Shown one piece after another: positions 3,900 to 29,040 of a stretch of DNA of 64,000 bases. Within the stretch, counting starts at the first letter, position 1; each line of letters begins with the position of its first letter. Made by a program: the position numbers and the translations under genes. Location: NCBI RefSeq assembly GCF_038023995.1, contig NZ_CP150660.1:3904501-3968500 (forward strand). The letters run 5' to 3'. The notes under the pieces were generated by a model. That model saw nothing but the letters and a program-made list of their open reading frames with translations, was not told the origin of the DNA and made no database searches. Source of the DNA: Polaribacter atrinae (lineage in GTDB: Bacteria; Bacteroidota; Bacteroidia; Flavobacteriales; Flavobacteriaceae).

Positions 3900-4143
3900 C
3901 TACAACTTCTCCCTCAAAAGAGCAATTTCATCACGTAGTTTAGCAGCAACAATAAAGTCTAATTCTTTAGCAGCGGCTTCCATGTGCTTACGTTTTTCTC
4001 GTATTCGTTTTTCTATTTCCTCTTTTGGTAAATACTGTAAATCTTGTTCTGCTGCAACCTGTTTTGCATTGTCGTAATGATAACTAGAAACGGTAGATTT
4101 AGATAAAGTATCATCAATTTTTTTGTTGATTTGGGTTGAGGTT
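3900..4143 (-). pseudogene. Duplicated 3' end of uvrB (UvrB C-terminal fragment)
   Basis: On the minus strand this segment reads as the last ~80 codons of UvrB, through KKIDDTLSKSTVSSYHYDN to the UVR domain and its own stop codon at 3900-3902. Over a core of about 215 bases it differs from the 3' end of intact uvrB (5716-~5960) at roughly six positions, mostly synonymous; similarity ends near 4143, and both ends of the match are more diverged. It has no start codon and cannot make a working UvrB. The silent-site pattern suggests both copies evolved under selection in separate lineages before being brought together. It marks the far edge of an insertion that placed the gene at 4351-5535 behind uvrB. 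Confidence 0.88.
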
Positions 4144-22618: not shown

Positions 22619-22655
22619 AAAAATTTCCTTGGATTTATTTTCCTTGGTAAATAAA
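22619..22655 (+). promoter_or_regulatory. Two overlapping candidate MarR operators
   Basis: Two dyads with core TTTCCTTGG are centred 15 bases apart: 22619-22640 (half-sites AAAAATTTCC and GGATTTATTT, 7 of 10 symmetric) and 22634-22655 (TTTATTTTCC and GGTAAATAAA, 9 of 10 symmetric). The second has the same half-site as the perfect palindrome at 25102-25123 next to marR. It covers the -33 TTG of the promoter at 22644-22674, so a bound repressor would block RNA polymerase. Confidence 0.6.
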
Positions 22656-22674
22656 ATTTTATTTTGTATTTTTG
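22644..22674 (+). promoter_or_regulatory. Bacteroidota-type promoter of the DoxX/OsmC redox operon
   Basis: TTG (22644-22646), 20-base spacer, then TATTTTTG (22667-22674) matches the TTG/TAnnTTTG promoter consensus. Transcription would begin near 22681, only ~15 bases before the apparent N-terminus of the DoxX-like frame. The TTG is inside a candidate operator. Confidence 0.6.
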
Positions 22675-22737
22675 TCAAGAATTTAAAATATTTAGGATAA
22701 AACAACAAAAATTATATATTACGTTTCAACAAGTTTA

Positions 22738-23061
22738 TTGACACTAATCATGCTTTTTTCTGCAGGCATGTATATTTTTAATCATGAAGCAGTAGCCGGT
22801 ATGTTTACCAATTTTGGGTATCCAACATATATTATTTATCCGTATGCCGTAGCAAAATTATTAGGTTTAGTTGCGTTGTGGTTTGTAGCTAATAAAACGA
22901 TAAAAGAGTGGGCGTATGCAGGTTTTTTCTTTGCATTTATTTTTGTTTTTTTTGCACATATTATGATTAATGACGGAGAACAAGCAGCATCTATAGCAGC
23001 AATGGTATTTTTAATTACCTCTTACATTACTTATAAGAAAATAACAAATGGCAGAGCTTAA
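22738..23061 (+). CDS. DoxX-like membrane protein, start codon uncertain
   Basis: A four-helix membrane protein of the DoxX-like type (MLFSAGMYIFNHEAVAGMF, FGYPTYIIYPYAVAKLLGL, FFFAFIFVFFAHIM). Such proteins are often linked to thiol or oxidative stress genes and have no proven reaction. The first usable codon in frame is TTG at 22738, but coding similarity to relatives seems to extend upstream through DKTTKIIYYVSTSLL to 22696, where the codon before GAT is TAG rather than ATG. Either TTG is the true start, giving a shorter first helix, or the start codon has been mutated. It overlaps the osmC gene by 14 bases and leads a four-gene redox operon. Confidence 0.75.
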   Translation: MTLIMLFSAGMYIFNHEAVAGMFTNFGYPTYIIYPYAVAKLLGLVALWFVANKTIKEWAYAGFFFAFIFVFFAHIMINDGEQAASIAAMVFLITSYITYKKITNGRA

Positions 23062-23443
23062 AAAATCTGAAGTAGTTTTAACAAATAGAAACTATTTAGC
23101 AGAAGCAAAAACAAGAAATCATTTTTTAACAATGGATCAATCTGTTGCTTCTGGAGGTGATGATAGTGGAGCAACTCCGGTAGAATTTTTATTAACAGCA
23201 ATTGGTGGTTGTGTTTCTATGACGTTAAGAACCTATGCAGAAATAAGAGGTTGGGATGTTGGAGAGATAACAGTAAATGTTATTCAACATCAAGATGAAA
23301 GTGGTAGTTATTTAACTGAAGATATATCCTTTGAAAAAGAAATAACAGAAGCACAAAGAAAGAAGTTATTAGTCTTTGCAGGTAAATGTCCTGTTGCAAA
23401 AATGATAAAAGGAGAAACAAAAATAGTTACTAGTATTCTGTAG
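23048..23443 (+). CDS. OsmC/Ohr-family peroxiredoxin-like protein
   Basis: A 131-residue OsmC-fold protein. The first conserved cysteine lies in GATPVEFLLTAIGGCVSMTL (about residues 37-56) and the second in FAGKCPVAKMI (about 113-123). These thiols reduce organic hydroperoxides or bind reactive electrophiles in OsmC/YhfA-type enzymes. The start overlaps the DoxX-like gene and an FMN reductase gene follows, so the protein acts in a thiol/redox stress operon. YhfA-type versus Ohr-type cannot be settled here; the C-terminal GETKIVTSI pattern looks more like the YhfA type. Confidence 0.88.
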   Translation: MAELKKSEVVLTNRNYLAEAKTRNHFLTMDQSVASGGDDSGATPVEFLLTAIGGCVSMTLRTYAEIRGWDVGEITVNVIQHQDESGSYLTEDISFEKEITEAQRKKLLVFAGKCPVAKMIKGETKIVTSIL

Positions 23444-23501
23444 TTCAGATTGTAATTTAATAGTTTGTTGTCACGATTACACAAATAAACATTTTTAAAA
23501 T

Positions 23502-24035
23502 ATGAAAAAAATATTAGCATTTGCAGGTAGTACAAGTTCTACTTCTATCAATAAAAAATTAGCAACTTTTGCAGCAGAAAACTTAGTAAATACTTCTTTT
23601 GATGTGGTAGATTTAAGAGATTTTACATTACCAATTTATAGTGAAGATGAAGAAAAAAATGGTTTTCCAGAAGATGCAAAAAAGTTTTCTGCATTACTAG
23701 ATCATTACGACGGTTTTATTTTGTCTTTAGCAGAACACAATGGTTCTTATACAGTTGCTTTTAAAAATATTTTTGATTGGAGCTCAAGAATAGAAGCCCA
23801 GGTTTTTAGAGACAAACCTTTATTATTAATGGCAACTTCTCCAGGAGCAAGAGGTGGACTTACAGTTTTAGAAACAGGAATGGCAAGATTTTCTAGACAA
23901 GGCGCAAAAGAATTAATTTCTTTCTCTTTCCCAAGTTTTTATGATAATTTTAAAGAGGGTACAATCGTAAATATAGAATTATTGACAGCCTTAAAAGAAA
24001 AGGTAGACACATTTGAAAATGCAGTAAATCAATAA
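23502..24035 (+). CDS. NAD(P)H-dependent FMN reductase
   Basis: A 177-residue flavodoxin-fold protein of the NADPH-dependent FMN reductase family. The FMN phosphate loop is GSTSSTSINKKL (about residues 8-19), and a second flavin-contact segment is LAEHNGSYTVAFKNIFDW (about 78-95); TSPGARGGLTVLE follows. Relatives reduce free FMN, quinones or azo compounds. It is the third gene of the DoxX/OsmC operon, ending 3 bases before the glutaredoxin-like gene. It probably supplies electrons or detoxifies quinones in the same stress response. Confidence 0.9.
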   Translation: MKKILAFAGSTSSTSINKKLATFAAENLVNTSFDVVDLRDFTLPIYSEDEEKNGFPEDAKKFSALLDHYDGFILSLAEHNGSYTVAFKNIFDWSSRIEAQVFRDKPLLLMATSPGARGGLTVLETGMARFSRQGAKELISFSFPSFYDNFKEGTIVNIELLTALKEKVDTFENAVNQ

Positions 24036-24038
24036 AAA

Positions 24039-24287
24039 ATGAAAATAGTTTTATACGGCAGAGCAGGACATGCATATACAGTAGCTTTTAAAAATTTTTT
24101 GAATTCAACAGATATTCCATACATCTATAAAGATATTTCTAAAGATGCTGCAGCAAGAGAACATAGTAAAGAATTGTATGATGGCGTTGCTAAATACCCA
24201 ACCCTGTTTGTAGATGATAAAGTCTATTTAACACCAACAACAGAAGAATTTAATAAAATTATGCAAGATTTAAATCTAAGAGCATAA
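24039..24287 (+). CDS. Glutaredoxin-fold protein lacking active-site cysteines
   Basis: An 82-residue protein with the size and pattern of a glutaredoxin: beta strand KIVLYGRAG, active-site position, helix, then the cis-proline segment KYPTLFVDDKVYLTP. Where glutaredoxins have CPYC this protein has HAYT (in AGHAYTVAFKN), and there is no cysteine anywhere in it. It therefore cannot do dithiol exchange and may bind glutathione-like thiols, a partner protein or nothing. The following residues YTVAFKN are identical to YTVAFKN in the adjacent FMN reductase. It closes the redox operon. Confidence 0.75.
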   Translation: MKIVLYGRAGHAYTVAFKNFLNSTDIPYIYKDISKDAAAREHSKELYDGVAKYPTLFVDDKVYLTPTTEEFNKIMQDLNLRA

Positions 24288-24304
24288 GTTTTTGTTTTGG
24301 GATT

Positions 24305-24388
24305 AAGAACAAAGAACAAAGAACAAAGAACAAAGAATCGAGAATTAAGAAAAGAGAATAAAGAGAATAAAGAGTGAAAAGTGAAGGG
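24305..24388 (+). repeat. Heptad tract after the glutaredoxin-like gene (AAGAACA units)
   Basis: Four perfect AAGAACA units (24305-24332) are followed in phase by AAGAATC, GAGAATT, AAGAAAA, GAGAATA, AAGAGAA and further decayed purine-rich heptads to about 24388. It lies 17 bases after a stop codon and is paired with a different heptad array before the next gene. Confidence 0.8.
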
Positions 24389-24461
24389 GCAATTTTTTTT
24401 AAACAGAATGAATAATTTTGAATGTAATTAGAATGTACATCACTTATTTTTTTTAATTTTC

Positions 24462-24636
24462 GATTACTGATTACTGATTACTGATTACTGATTACTGATT
24501 ACTGATTACTGATTACTGATTACTGATTACTGATTACTGATTACTGATTACTGATTACTGATTACTGATTACTGATTACTGATTACTGATTACTGATTAC
24601 TGATTACTGATTACTGATTACTGATTACTGATTACT
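24462..24636 (+). repeat. Perfect tandem array of 25 GATTACT units
   Basis: Exactly 175 bases made of 25 identical 7-base units GATTACT, ending 13 bases before the marR start codon; one further degenerate unit lies between. All frames on both strands contain stops, so it is non-coding. With no mismatch in 25 units the array must be young or actively homogenised. Slipped-strand change in copy number would alter promoter-to-gene spacing in 7-base steps. Confidence 0.97.
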
Positions 24637-24649
24637 AAATACTGAATAC

Positions 24650-25087
24650 ATGGGAGATATTTCTAAAGACATAAAATCTACGTTTAAAAGCAATAAATTA
24701 AAAGCTTTTATCAATATAAAATACACGGCAAATTGGTTAAGTAGTAAAGAAAATGAATTCTTTAAACCGTATGCTATTTCTCCACAACAGTATAATATTC
24801 TTAGAATTTTACGCGGTGCAAAAGATAGAATTAAAGTACAAGTTGTAAAAGAAAGAATGATAGAAAGGGCGCCAAATGCAACCCGTTTAATGGACAAGTT
24901 ATGCGATAAAAATTTAATTGAGAGAGAGCGTTGCGAAGAAGACAGAAGAGTAGTATATGTTAGAATAACAAAACTTGGTTTAGAATTATTAACAAGTATT
25001 GATGATAATAAAACACTATCTTTTTTAGATAATATTACCGAAGAAGAAGCTTTATTACTAAGTAATTTGTTAGATAAATTACGATAA
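24650..25087 (+). CDS. MarR-family transcriptional regulator
   Basis: A 145-residue winged-helix repressor. The N-terminal dimerisation helix (KAFINIKYTANWLSSKENEFF) leads into the DNA-binding core: QQYNILRILRGAKDRIKVQ, then the recognition region ERAPNATRLMDKLCDKNLIER. The wing ERCEEDRRVVYVRITKLG contains the conserved D-R-R motif. MarR proteins release DNA on binding phenols, quinones or oxidants. It lies between a redox operon and two pirin genes. A perfect palindrome just downstream (25102-25123) and matching dyads at the redox operon promoter are likely targets. The single cysteine pair C-D-K / E-R-C near the wing could sense oxidation; this is inference. Confidence 0.92.
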   Translation: MGDISKDIKSTFKSNKLKAFINIKYTANWLSSKENEFFKPYAISPQQYNILRILRGAKDRIKVQVVKERMIERAPNATRLMDKLCDKNLIERERCEEDRRVVYVRITKLGLELLTSIDDNKTLSFLDNITEEEALLLSNLLDKLR

Positions 25088-25101
25088 AAAAAAATTACCC
25101 T

Positions 25102-25123
25102 TATATTTTCCATGGAAAATATA
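25102..25123 (+). promoter_or_regulatory. Perfect 22-base palindrome, candidate MarR operator
   Basis: The half-site TATATTTTCCA is followed by its exact complement TGGAAAATATA, between marR (stop at 25087) and the first pirin gene (start 25140). The core TTTTCCATGGAAAA resembles the TTTTCCTTGGTAAA site at the DoxX/OsmC promoter. Position and symmetry are as expected for a MarR dimer controlling the pirin gene. Confidence 0.65.
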
Positions 25124-25139
25124 AATGATTTAAAATAAA

Positions 25140-26009
25140 ATGAGAAAATTAAAATCGATACAGCACAATGTAACAAGTCCGCTTGTAAACATGGGGCCAA
25201 TAAAACTTCGTCAACCTTTGCCTACAGAAGGCATCGAAAATGTAGATCCGTTTTTGTTATTACATCATTATGGGCCTTATGCAATATCAGAATTTAACAA
25301 TCCGTTTGATTTAGGTCCGCATCCACATAGAGGATTCGAACCGATAACGTTGCTTTTTAAAGGCGAACAATTACATCGAGATTCTTTGGGTAACGAGATG
25401 GTTGTAAAGGCAGGAGGAGTACAATGGACAACCGCAGGTAGTGGAATTATTCACGCAGAAGCACCAACCAAAGAGTTTGTGAAAAAAGGTGGCGATTTAG
25501 AAGGAATTCAGCTTTGGTTAAACCTTCCTGCGAAAGATAAAATGATGACACCTAATTATCAGCATTTAGAAAAGGAACAGATACCTAAGTTAATTTCAGA
25601 AGATAAAAAAGTGCAGTTAAATATTATTGCCGGAAGCCAATTTGAAGAAAAAGGTTTGATTAAAACACAAACCGAAGTAAATGTGTTTACGGCAAAAGCA
25701 TCAGAAGGAGGAAAGCTAGAAATGAACATTCCAGAAAATCATCAATCTTTAATTTACTTATTAGATGGGGAGATTTTGATAAACAATTCAGAGGTTCTTA
25801 AAAAGGGAGAAAACCAGATGGTAACCTTCCACCAAGACGGAAATACCATTCAGTTCGAAGCCCAAAAAGAGAGTACAATTTTAATTTTATCAGGCAAACC
25901 AATCAATGAAAAAATTAAACAATACGGACCTTATGTAATGAATACGCAAACAGAAATTTTAGAAGCCATGCGCGATTTTAACCAAGGTAAAATGGGATAT
26001 TTATATTAG
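25140..26009 (+). CDS. Pirin-family bicupin protein
   Basis: A 289-residue bicupin of the pirin family. The N-terminal cupin holds the metal site: LGPHPHRGFEPITLLFKGE (about residues 59-77) and GSGIIHAEAP (about 100-109), giving the usual three His plus one Glu. DPFLLLHHYGP near residue 37 is also characteristic. The C-terminal half has the pirin_C domain (GEILINNSEVLKKGENQ). Bacterial pirins include quercetin dioxygenases and metabolic regulators; the substrate here is unknown. The gene follows marR and the palindrome by 17 bases. Its stop codon overlaps the start of a dispersed GGGCGTT element. Confidence 0.92.
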   Translation: MRKLKSIQHNVTSPLVNMGPIKLRQPLPTEGIENVDPFLLLHHYGPYAISEFNNPFDLGPHPHRGFEPITLLFKGEQLHRDSLGNEMVVKAGGVQWTTAGSGIIHAEAPTKEFVKKGGDLEGIQLWLNLPAKDKMMTPNYQHLEKEQIPKLISEDKKVQLNIIAGSQFEEKGLIKTQTEVNVFTAKASEGGKLEMNIPENHQSLIYLLDGEILINNSEVLKKGENQMVTFHQDGNTIQFEAQKESTILILSGKPINEKIKQYGPYVMNTQTEILEAMRDFNQGKMGYLY

Positions 26010-26188: not shown

Positions 26189-26896
26189 ATGAAAAAAATA
26201 CTTCACAAATCAACAACAAGAGGATATGCAAACCACGGTTGGTTAAAATCTCATCACACATTTAGCTTTGCAAATTATCAAAATCCAGAAAGAATGAATT
26301 TTGGTATGTTACGTGTTTTAAACGATGATGTTGTACAACCAAAAATGGGGTTTGGCACACATCCTCATAAAAATATGGAAATCATTTCTATACCTATTTC
26401 AGGAAGCTTATCTCACAAAGATAGTATGGAAAATAAACGAGCAATAGAAGTAGGAGAAGTACAAGTAATGAGTGCCGGAACAGGTTTAACACATTCAGAA
26501 TTTAATGATAGTAAAACAGACGAAGTTAATTTTTTACAACTTTGGATTATTCCTGAAGCAGAAAATGCAACCCCGTATTACAATCAAAAAATGTTTGATG
26601 AAGCTGGACGAAAAAATAAATTTCAAGTATTCGTTTCTCCAAAGGATAACTTAGTAGAAGGTTCTTTACCAATAAACCAACAAGGTTATATTTCTATGGT
26701 TGATTTAGATAAAGATTCAGAAATTACATATCAACCAAAAAAAGGAGCCTATTTTTTCTTAATTGAAGGAGAAGTTATTGTAGCAGACGAGATTCTAGAA
26801 AAAAGAGATGCTATAGGAATTACAGATGCAAAAAATATTTCTATTAAGGCAAATAGTTCAAGTAAGTTGTTAGTTGTAGATGTACCCATGTTTTAA
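26189..26896 (+). CDS. Pirin-like protein (YhaK/YhhW type)
   Basis: A 235-residue bicupin of the shorter YhhW/YhaK class. Opening residues RGYANHGWLKSHHTFSFANY are diagnostic. The metal ligands lie in GFGTHPHKNMEIISIPISG (about residues 53-71) and SAGTGLTHSEFN (about 97-108). YhhW has quercetin 2,3-dioxygenase activity; in this context detoxification of quinone- or phenol-like compounds would fit the neighbouring MarR and FMN reductase genes. A strong terminator hairpin (26919-26952) follows. Confidence 0.92.
   Translation: MKKILHKSTTRGYANHGWLKSHHTFSFANYQNPERMNFGMLRVLNDDVVQPKMGFGTHPHKNMEIISIPISGSLSHKDSMENKRAIEVGEVQVMSAGTGLTHSEFNDSKTDEVNFLQLWIIPEAENATPYYNQKMFDEAGRKNKFQVFVSPKDNLVEGSLPINQQGYISMVDLDKDSEITYQPKKGAYFFLIEGEVIVADEILEKRDAIGITDAKNISIKANSSSKLLVVDVPMF

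Positions 26897-26918: not shown

Positions 26919-29040
<2,122 letters not shown>

Follow-up and report, generated by a model that had tools for sequence, protein, structure and literature searches.

A palindrome common to a redox operon promoter, a marR-pirin junction and yceI suggests a MarR regulon in Polaribacter atrinae and related Flavobacteriaceae

A 64,000-nucleotide stretch of the Polaribacter atrinae genome (RefSeq assembly GCF_038023995.1, contig NZ_CP150660.1, positions 3,904,501 to 3,968,500 of the forward strand; hereafter the window) carries a redox gene cluster that includes a gene for a MarR-family regulator, and predicted operators of that regulator lie upstream of the first operon and directly after marR. 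Pfam profile searches identify an operon for DoxX, OsmC, flavin mononucleotide (FMN) reductase and glutaredoxin-like proteins (the doxX operon), followed by marR, two pirin genes and a gene of the old-yellow-enzyme (OYE) type. Related genera have the same palindrome next to the same genes, and chemical stress thus probably induces the set as a whole. The features, with positions in the window unless stated otherwise, are:

22620..22639, + strand: upstream, weaker dyad of the predicted tandem operator (core CCTTGG at 22627-22632)
22635..22654, + strand: main predicted operator of the doxX operon, TTATTTTCCTTGGTAAATAA (core CCTTGG at 22642-22647)
22644..22674, + strand: doxX operon promoter, TTG-N20-TAnnTTTG (TTG at 22644-22646, box at 22667-22674)
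22738..23061, + strand: DoxX_2 membrane protein (Pfam; the open reading frame starts at TTG, the usual ATG being absent)
23048..23443, + strand: OsmC-like protein (Pfam)
23502..24035, + strand: NADPH-dependent FMN reductase, FMN_red (Pfam)
24039..24287, + strand: glutaredoxin-like protein (Pfam)
24650..25087, + strand: MarR-family regulator of 145 amino acids (Pfam and AlphaFold model)
25101..25124, + strand: perfect 24-bp palindromic predicted operator, TTATATTTTCCA/TGGAAAATATAA, between marR and the first pirin gene
25140..26009, + strand: first pirin, pirA (Pfam; Pirin and Pirin_C)
26189..26896, + strand: second pirin, pirB (Pfam; Pirin and Pirin_C_2)
27016..29040, + strand: Oxidored_FMN/Pyr_redox_2 protein of the old-yellow-enzyme/FadH type (Pfam), commonly the last gene of the cluster
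G000:C1:1782411-1782455 (4011-4057 of locus L213, about 1.782 Mb), in the same genome, outside the window: yceI promoter region with two predicted operators, before a YceI-domain lipoprotein gene

No other perfect even palindrome in the window is as long as the one between marR and pirA; the runner-up has 18 bp. In 100 dinucleotide shuffles perfect palindromes of at least 24 bp averaged 0.02, and any were present in 2 of the 100. The original prediction had recognised its perfect symmetry and given its length as 22 bp (25102-25123), which is the inner part of the full 24 bp. Before the doxX operon, 22619-22655 holds, as had been predicted, two overlapping dyads. Both are imperfect, their CCTTGG cores are 15 bp apart, and these dyads have a CC-WW-GG core in common with the palindrome after marR.

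The -7 box of the doxX promoter, TATTTTTG, fits TAnnTTTG; PMC6847099 gives the Bacteroidetes promoter consensus as TTTG/TANNTTTG. Since the TTG within the downstream core lies exactly 20 bp before TATTTTTG, the dyads do cover the -33 element of this promoter, as originally claimed. Promoter-side sites number 156 with the window included, of which 146 precede cluster genes and 10 precede marR. In 117 of them TAnnTTTG begins exactly 23 bases past the first W of the core, and 99 of those 117 hold TTG in the core. The central pair upstream of cluster genes (145 relatives' sites) is TT in 105, AT in 27, TA in 13 and AA in none, whereas at 52 sites downstream of marR it is AT in 29, TT in 15 and AA in 8, which indicates that operator orientation is biased where the site forms part of a promoter. 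Exactly 15 bp upstream of the main core, a second core retains CC in 47%, GG in 58% and both in 26% of the 146 sites, as against 0-4% at each of the other offsets between -32 and -6. The retention of this degenerate core at -15 identifies the overlapping dyads as a conserved design, and the operator-promoter arrangement as a whole is unusually clean.

Conservation was scored, using the half-site of the window palindrome, in 80 named loci and 60 further family loci. The named loci are the best of 342 matches and are titled Polaribacter, Tenacibaculum, Lutibacter, other Flavobacteriaceae and one Bacteroidia bacterium; the family loci, mostly from different genera, were drawn from 114 genomes with a MarR ortholog. 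A CC-WW-GG palindrome lies upstream of doxX, osmC, fmnR or grx in 69/80 named and 55/60 family loci, just downstream of marR in 37/80 and 15/60, and upstream of marR in 10/80 and 0/60. At least one of these slots is occupied in 77/80 and 55/60 loci respectively. Outside the slots such palindromes are scarce, with only 8 in 1.17 Mb of the named loci and 2 in the family loci. In an identical search by core, CC flanks cluster genes in 132/140 loci and each of eleven other two-base cores does so in 0-5/140; conservation near marR, doxX, osmC and pirin orthologs, proposed earlier as a check, was therefore found. The gene order doxX-osmC-fmnR-grx-marR-pirA-pirB-OYE also recurs among the named loci, with many losses.

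The motif tracks the regulator across genomes. In 299 family genomes, with a MarR ortholog defined by at least 56% identity, the strict motif (no mismatch) is present in 81 of the 114 genomes that have the ortholog and in 6 of the 185 that lack it (Fisher p 2.6e-38, uncorrected for phylogeny), and a reversed control pattern matches 11 of the 299. The follow-up of the six covered four: G310 and G220 have their match inside a coding sequence, and in G217 and G061 no relative of the cluster or of yceI was found on searching. The remaining two are G099 and G137. In another genome, G209, two extra matches were seen, one inside a gene and one upstream of an unrelated gene. Also in favour of the link, a single-contig genus genome with no marR match (G055) has kept yceI and fmnR relatives, each 54% identical, and no operator was found near either, although this is one case only.

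The predicted regulon would extend to at least one unit outside the window, yceI. In the 4.01-Mb genome, sites within two mismatches of TATTTTCCWTGGAAAATA that keep CC..GG are only the doxX site, the marR-pirin site and the yceI pair, and the yceI operator nearer the gene contains a TATATTTG -7-like box in its half-site. In 19 other genus genomes a yceI relative has a site shortly upstream in 19/19 (two sites in 15, one in 4), a figure that is not a frequency since these loci were picked for their off-cluster matches. In two genomes of one other genus (G090 and G315) a different YceI gene (loci L303 and L302) has a site some 40-50 bp in front of it. Looser searches do not discriminate: at three mismatches the window yields 48 matches against 47.5 expected, which makes such scanning useless there. 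Genome-wide, a longer motif with up to three mismatches gives 37 forward and 34 reverse matches against 42 and 32 for its control, and a shorter pattern with up to two mismatches gives 259 and 265 against 310 and 327. As the loose motif is no commoner than the control, weak sites are uncountable, and the membership that we claim in this genome is limited to the doxX operon, pirin and yceI. Immediately before the Oxidored_FMN/Pyr_redox_2 gene no operator was seen, and its membership of the regulon is not claimed.

The window protein scores 39.4 bits against PF01047 (cut-off 24.6), placing it in the winged-helix MarR domain family. Its AlphaFold model has a mean predicted local distance difference test (pLDDT) score of 82, and in fold it matches structures of the MarR family, HpaR, E. 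coli MarR and S. aureus MhqR among them. As is usual for the family, a palindrome that would serve as operator is found beside its own and adjacent genes. Across 141 aligned orthologs the recognition-helix segment R73, P75, N76, T78, R79, L80, D82 and K83 is 99-100% conserved.

MarR paralogs 38-49% identical to the window protein (groups L306-L317 and L326-L345) mostly have both different recognition helices and different palindromes. These groups of Flavobacteriaceae, with PN..RLS and SNTTR helices, are arranged much like the window locus, with palindromes next to marR and in some cases YceI or DoxX genes alongside; they differ in the palindromes themselves, which are TTTACATG.AAA-like and TTGTA-NN-TACAA-like. 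The palindromes were read by eye in 10 paralog loci and then scored in these and 20 new ones, over 350 bp on the upstream and 297 bp on the downstream side of marR. With flanks of equal length, the CC-WW-GG motif is found in 0/30 paralogs and 45/139 orthologs (Fisher p 5e-5). Among five paralogs with a P-N helix, four, all RLS, have TTTACATG.AAA-like sites, and 21 of the remaining 25 have TTGTA-NN-TACAA-like sites; in the 20 new loci alone the counts are 1/2 and 14/18. For orthologs the corresponding figures are 0/139 and 2/139.

These comparisons lead us to propose, with confidence evenly balanced for and against, that the MarR paralogs of Bacteroidota share a layout in which operators occupy the promoter and the stretch right after marR, and that operator core and recognition helix have diverged together: CC-WW-GG for (A/S)PN(A/T)TR, ACATGT for PN.TRLS (4/4 paralogs) and GTA-NN-TAC for SN(T/A)(T/S)R. 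Operators of the CC-WW-GG group would, at their centre, also supply the -33 element, with a second core one and a half turns upstream. If true, this would amount to a readable natural specificity code insulating parallel modules of quinone/electrophile defence. The paralog groups, with their distinct palindromes, are a natural series for the study of MarR specificity.

We infer that a dimer of MarR binds the palindrome, with consensus WTATTTTCC-WW-GGWAAATAW. At the doxX promoter one dimer would cover the -33 TTG, which is the operator centre; repression would probably be strengthened by a second dimer, perhaps bound cooperatively, on the core that lies 15 bp upstream. A third site lies between marR and pirin, and two more before the yceI lipoprotein gene elsewhere in the genome. 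If MarR is inactivated, for which an electrophile, a quinone or an oxidant is the likeliest cause, the doxX operon, both pirin genes and yceI would be induced together; electrophile or quinone stress is suggested by the presence of FMN reductase, OsmC, glutaredoxin, pirin and OYE-type proteins. To judge from sequence, we consider it highly likely that MarR represses this redox/electrophile defence set through the common palindrome, with joint derepression when it is inactivated. The earlier proposal of one MarR protein for both the redox operon and the pirin gene is supported by the conserved sites, the tracking across 299 genomes and the different palindromes of the paralogs, and predicted binding and repression would fit with these.

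Several observations weigh against repression of this set by MarR, or limit its reach. The strict motif is absent from 33 of the 114 ortholog genomes, and both the counts and the Fisher tests ignore shared ancestry. Within the genus, the motif is present in 45/52 genomes with marR and 1/6 without, a weak test because the reversed control with one mismatch also matches 23/58 genus genomes. The slot downstream of marR is empty in 88/140 loci. Eight of the 140 (L059, L073, L099, L226, L227, L256, L265 and L267) have no site in the tested slots; only L059 and L073 have a contig starting at or near marR, and L256 does have a site, outside the slots. A recognisable canonical promoter was sought at the marR-pirin site and not found, which makes control of pirin from this site less certain than that of the doxX operon. 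With regard to the proposed code, the fifth P-N paralog, L345, has a helix close to that of the orthologs and neither the CC-WW-GG nor the ACATGT motif, which speaks against a simple code. Outside the family, CC-NN-GG sites occur by marR in only 3/10 P-N-helix relatives and in 0/8 S-N proteins, so that the relation between helix and operator is suggestive rather than proven. The nature of the inducer is a guess from gene content.

Were the palindromes operators of a different transcription factor, MarR would be a mere neighbour. MarR is tied to the motif by sequence comparison, and one genus genome (G004, 92% complete in about 200 contigs) has sites and no marR match. That assembly is, however, fragmented, with its doxX-osmC-fmnR cluster running into a contig end. 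Sites flank marR itself, motif and ortholog co-occur across the 299 genomes, and in paralogs whose recognition helices differ, different palindromes occupy comparable positions; we regard a different factor as improbable. A similarly low probability attaches to the marR-pirin palindrome acting in the transcript, as a hairpin or attenuator, instead of as a DNA operator. Its perfect self-complementarity and its place between two co-directional genes, with no recognisable promoter alongside, would suit such a role, but no T run follows it and its consensus is that of the promoter-side sites, which precede the -7 box and would thus be expected to fall outside the operon mRNA.

The conserved upstream site at its fixed distance would also be compatible with activation by MarR, for example from 15 bp upstream. 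At the main site, which has the -33 element at its centre, a bound protein would be expected to block the promoter, and the yceI operator nearer the gene includes the TATATTTG -7-like box; activation is thus very improbable, and repression by MarR remains the reading that we prefer.

Among known systems, MhqR of Staphylococcus aureus and Bacillus subtilis, a MarR-type quinone-sensing repressor, is alike in its MarR fold, its promoter palindrome and its redox/quinone-detoxification targets, and its structure 9qdr ranks 19 among the Foldseek matches of the window model. According to PMC6798810, the MhqR operator is TATCTCGAA-aTCGAaATA at -6 to +12; the window consensus is instead TATTTTCC-WW-GGWAAATA centred on -33, and the targets differ too. 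The quinone pocket of MhqR is described in PMC12893000 as F11, F39, E43 and H111. HpaR, SlyA and MarR of Proteobacteria count among the closest NCBIfam and PDB relatives in sequence or fold, yet the window protein scores far below the NCBIfam cut-offs (HpaR, TIGR02337, 42 against 121.2 bits; SlyA, 37 against 120; MarR, 27.7 against 240), and membership of HpaR was rejected on this score. SydR and OhrR are likewise of MarR type, and both are redox-sensing repressors of redox genes. The sensing cysteine of SydR is the N-terminal C16 according to PMC11633110, whereas the window protein has no cysteine before C85 and scores 27.3 bits against 200 for NCBIfam OhrR, and assignment to the OhrR/SydR type was rejected. 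C85 is conserved in 126/141 orthologs, C95 in 128/141 and both in 115/141, such that a thiol switch is possible but not universal.

Flavobacteriia regulons are little mapped. The type of control system described here is already known, and a new MarR regulon is a well-supported prediction; literature searches, covering open-licence papers only and judged by title or the start of the abstract, found no paper on this regulon among those listed, a result that does not show its absence from print. The regulon would have a clear operator, a layout open to testing and three candidate transcription units in a single genome, and one redox-defence response would take in pirin, YceI, DoxX, OsmC and FMN reductase. 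The Flavobacteriaceae are called understudied in the abstract of PMC9723704.

Further features of the locus were noted. At the doxX start (22693-22752) the ATG of relatives, present in 63/63 examined, aligns to GAT in the window assembly, where the next in-frame start candidates are TTG at 22738 and ATG at 22750; in the sister genome G039, unlike the window, doxX also starts with ATG. The operators downstream of marR are preceded, at a constant distance of 6 bp, by an A-run with TTT after it, each T being present in 91-98% of 53 sites (loci L031-L278). The TTT is not intact in the window counterpart (25090-25100), and stretches resembling the element follow the stop codon of some MarR paralogs. 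A heptamer array, GATTACT in 26.9 copies (24462-24649), abuts the marR start codon. Its longest pure run is 25 copies in the window and 41 in G039, and among the loci seen L034 has GAATACT x 18 at the same place; heptamer copy number may vary marR expression.

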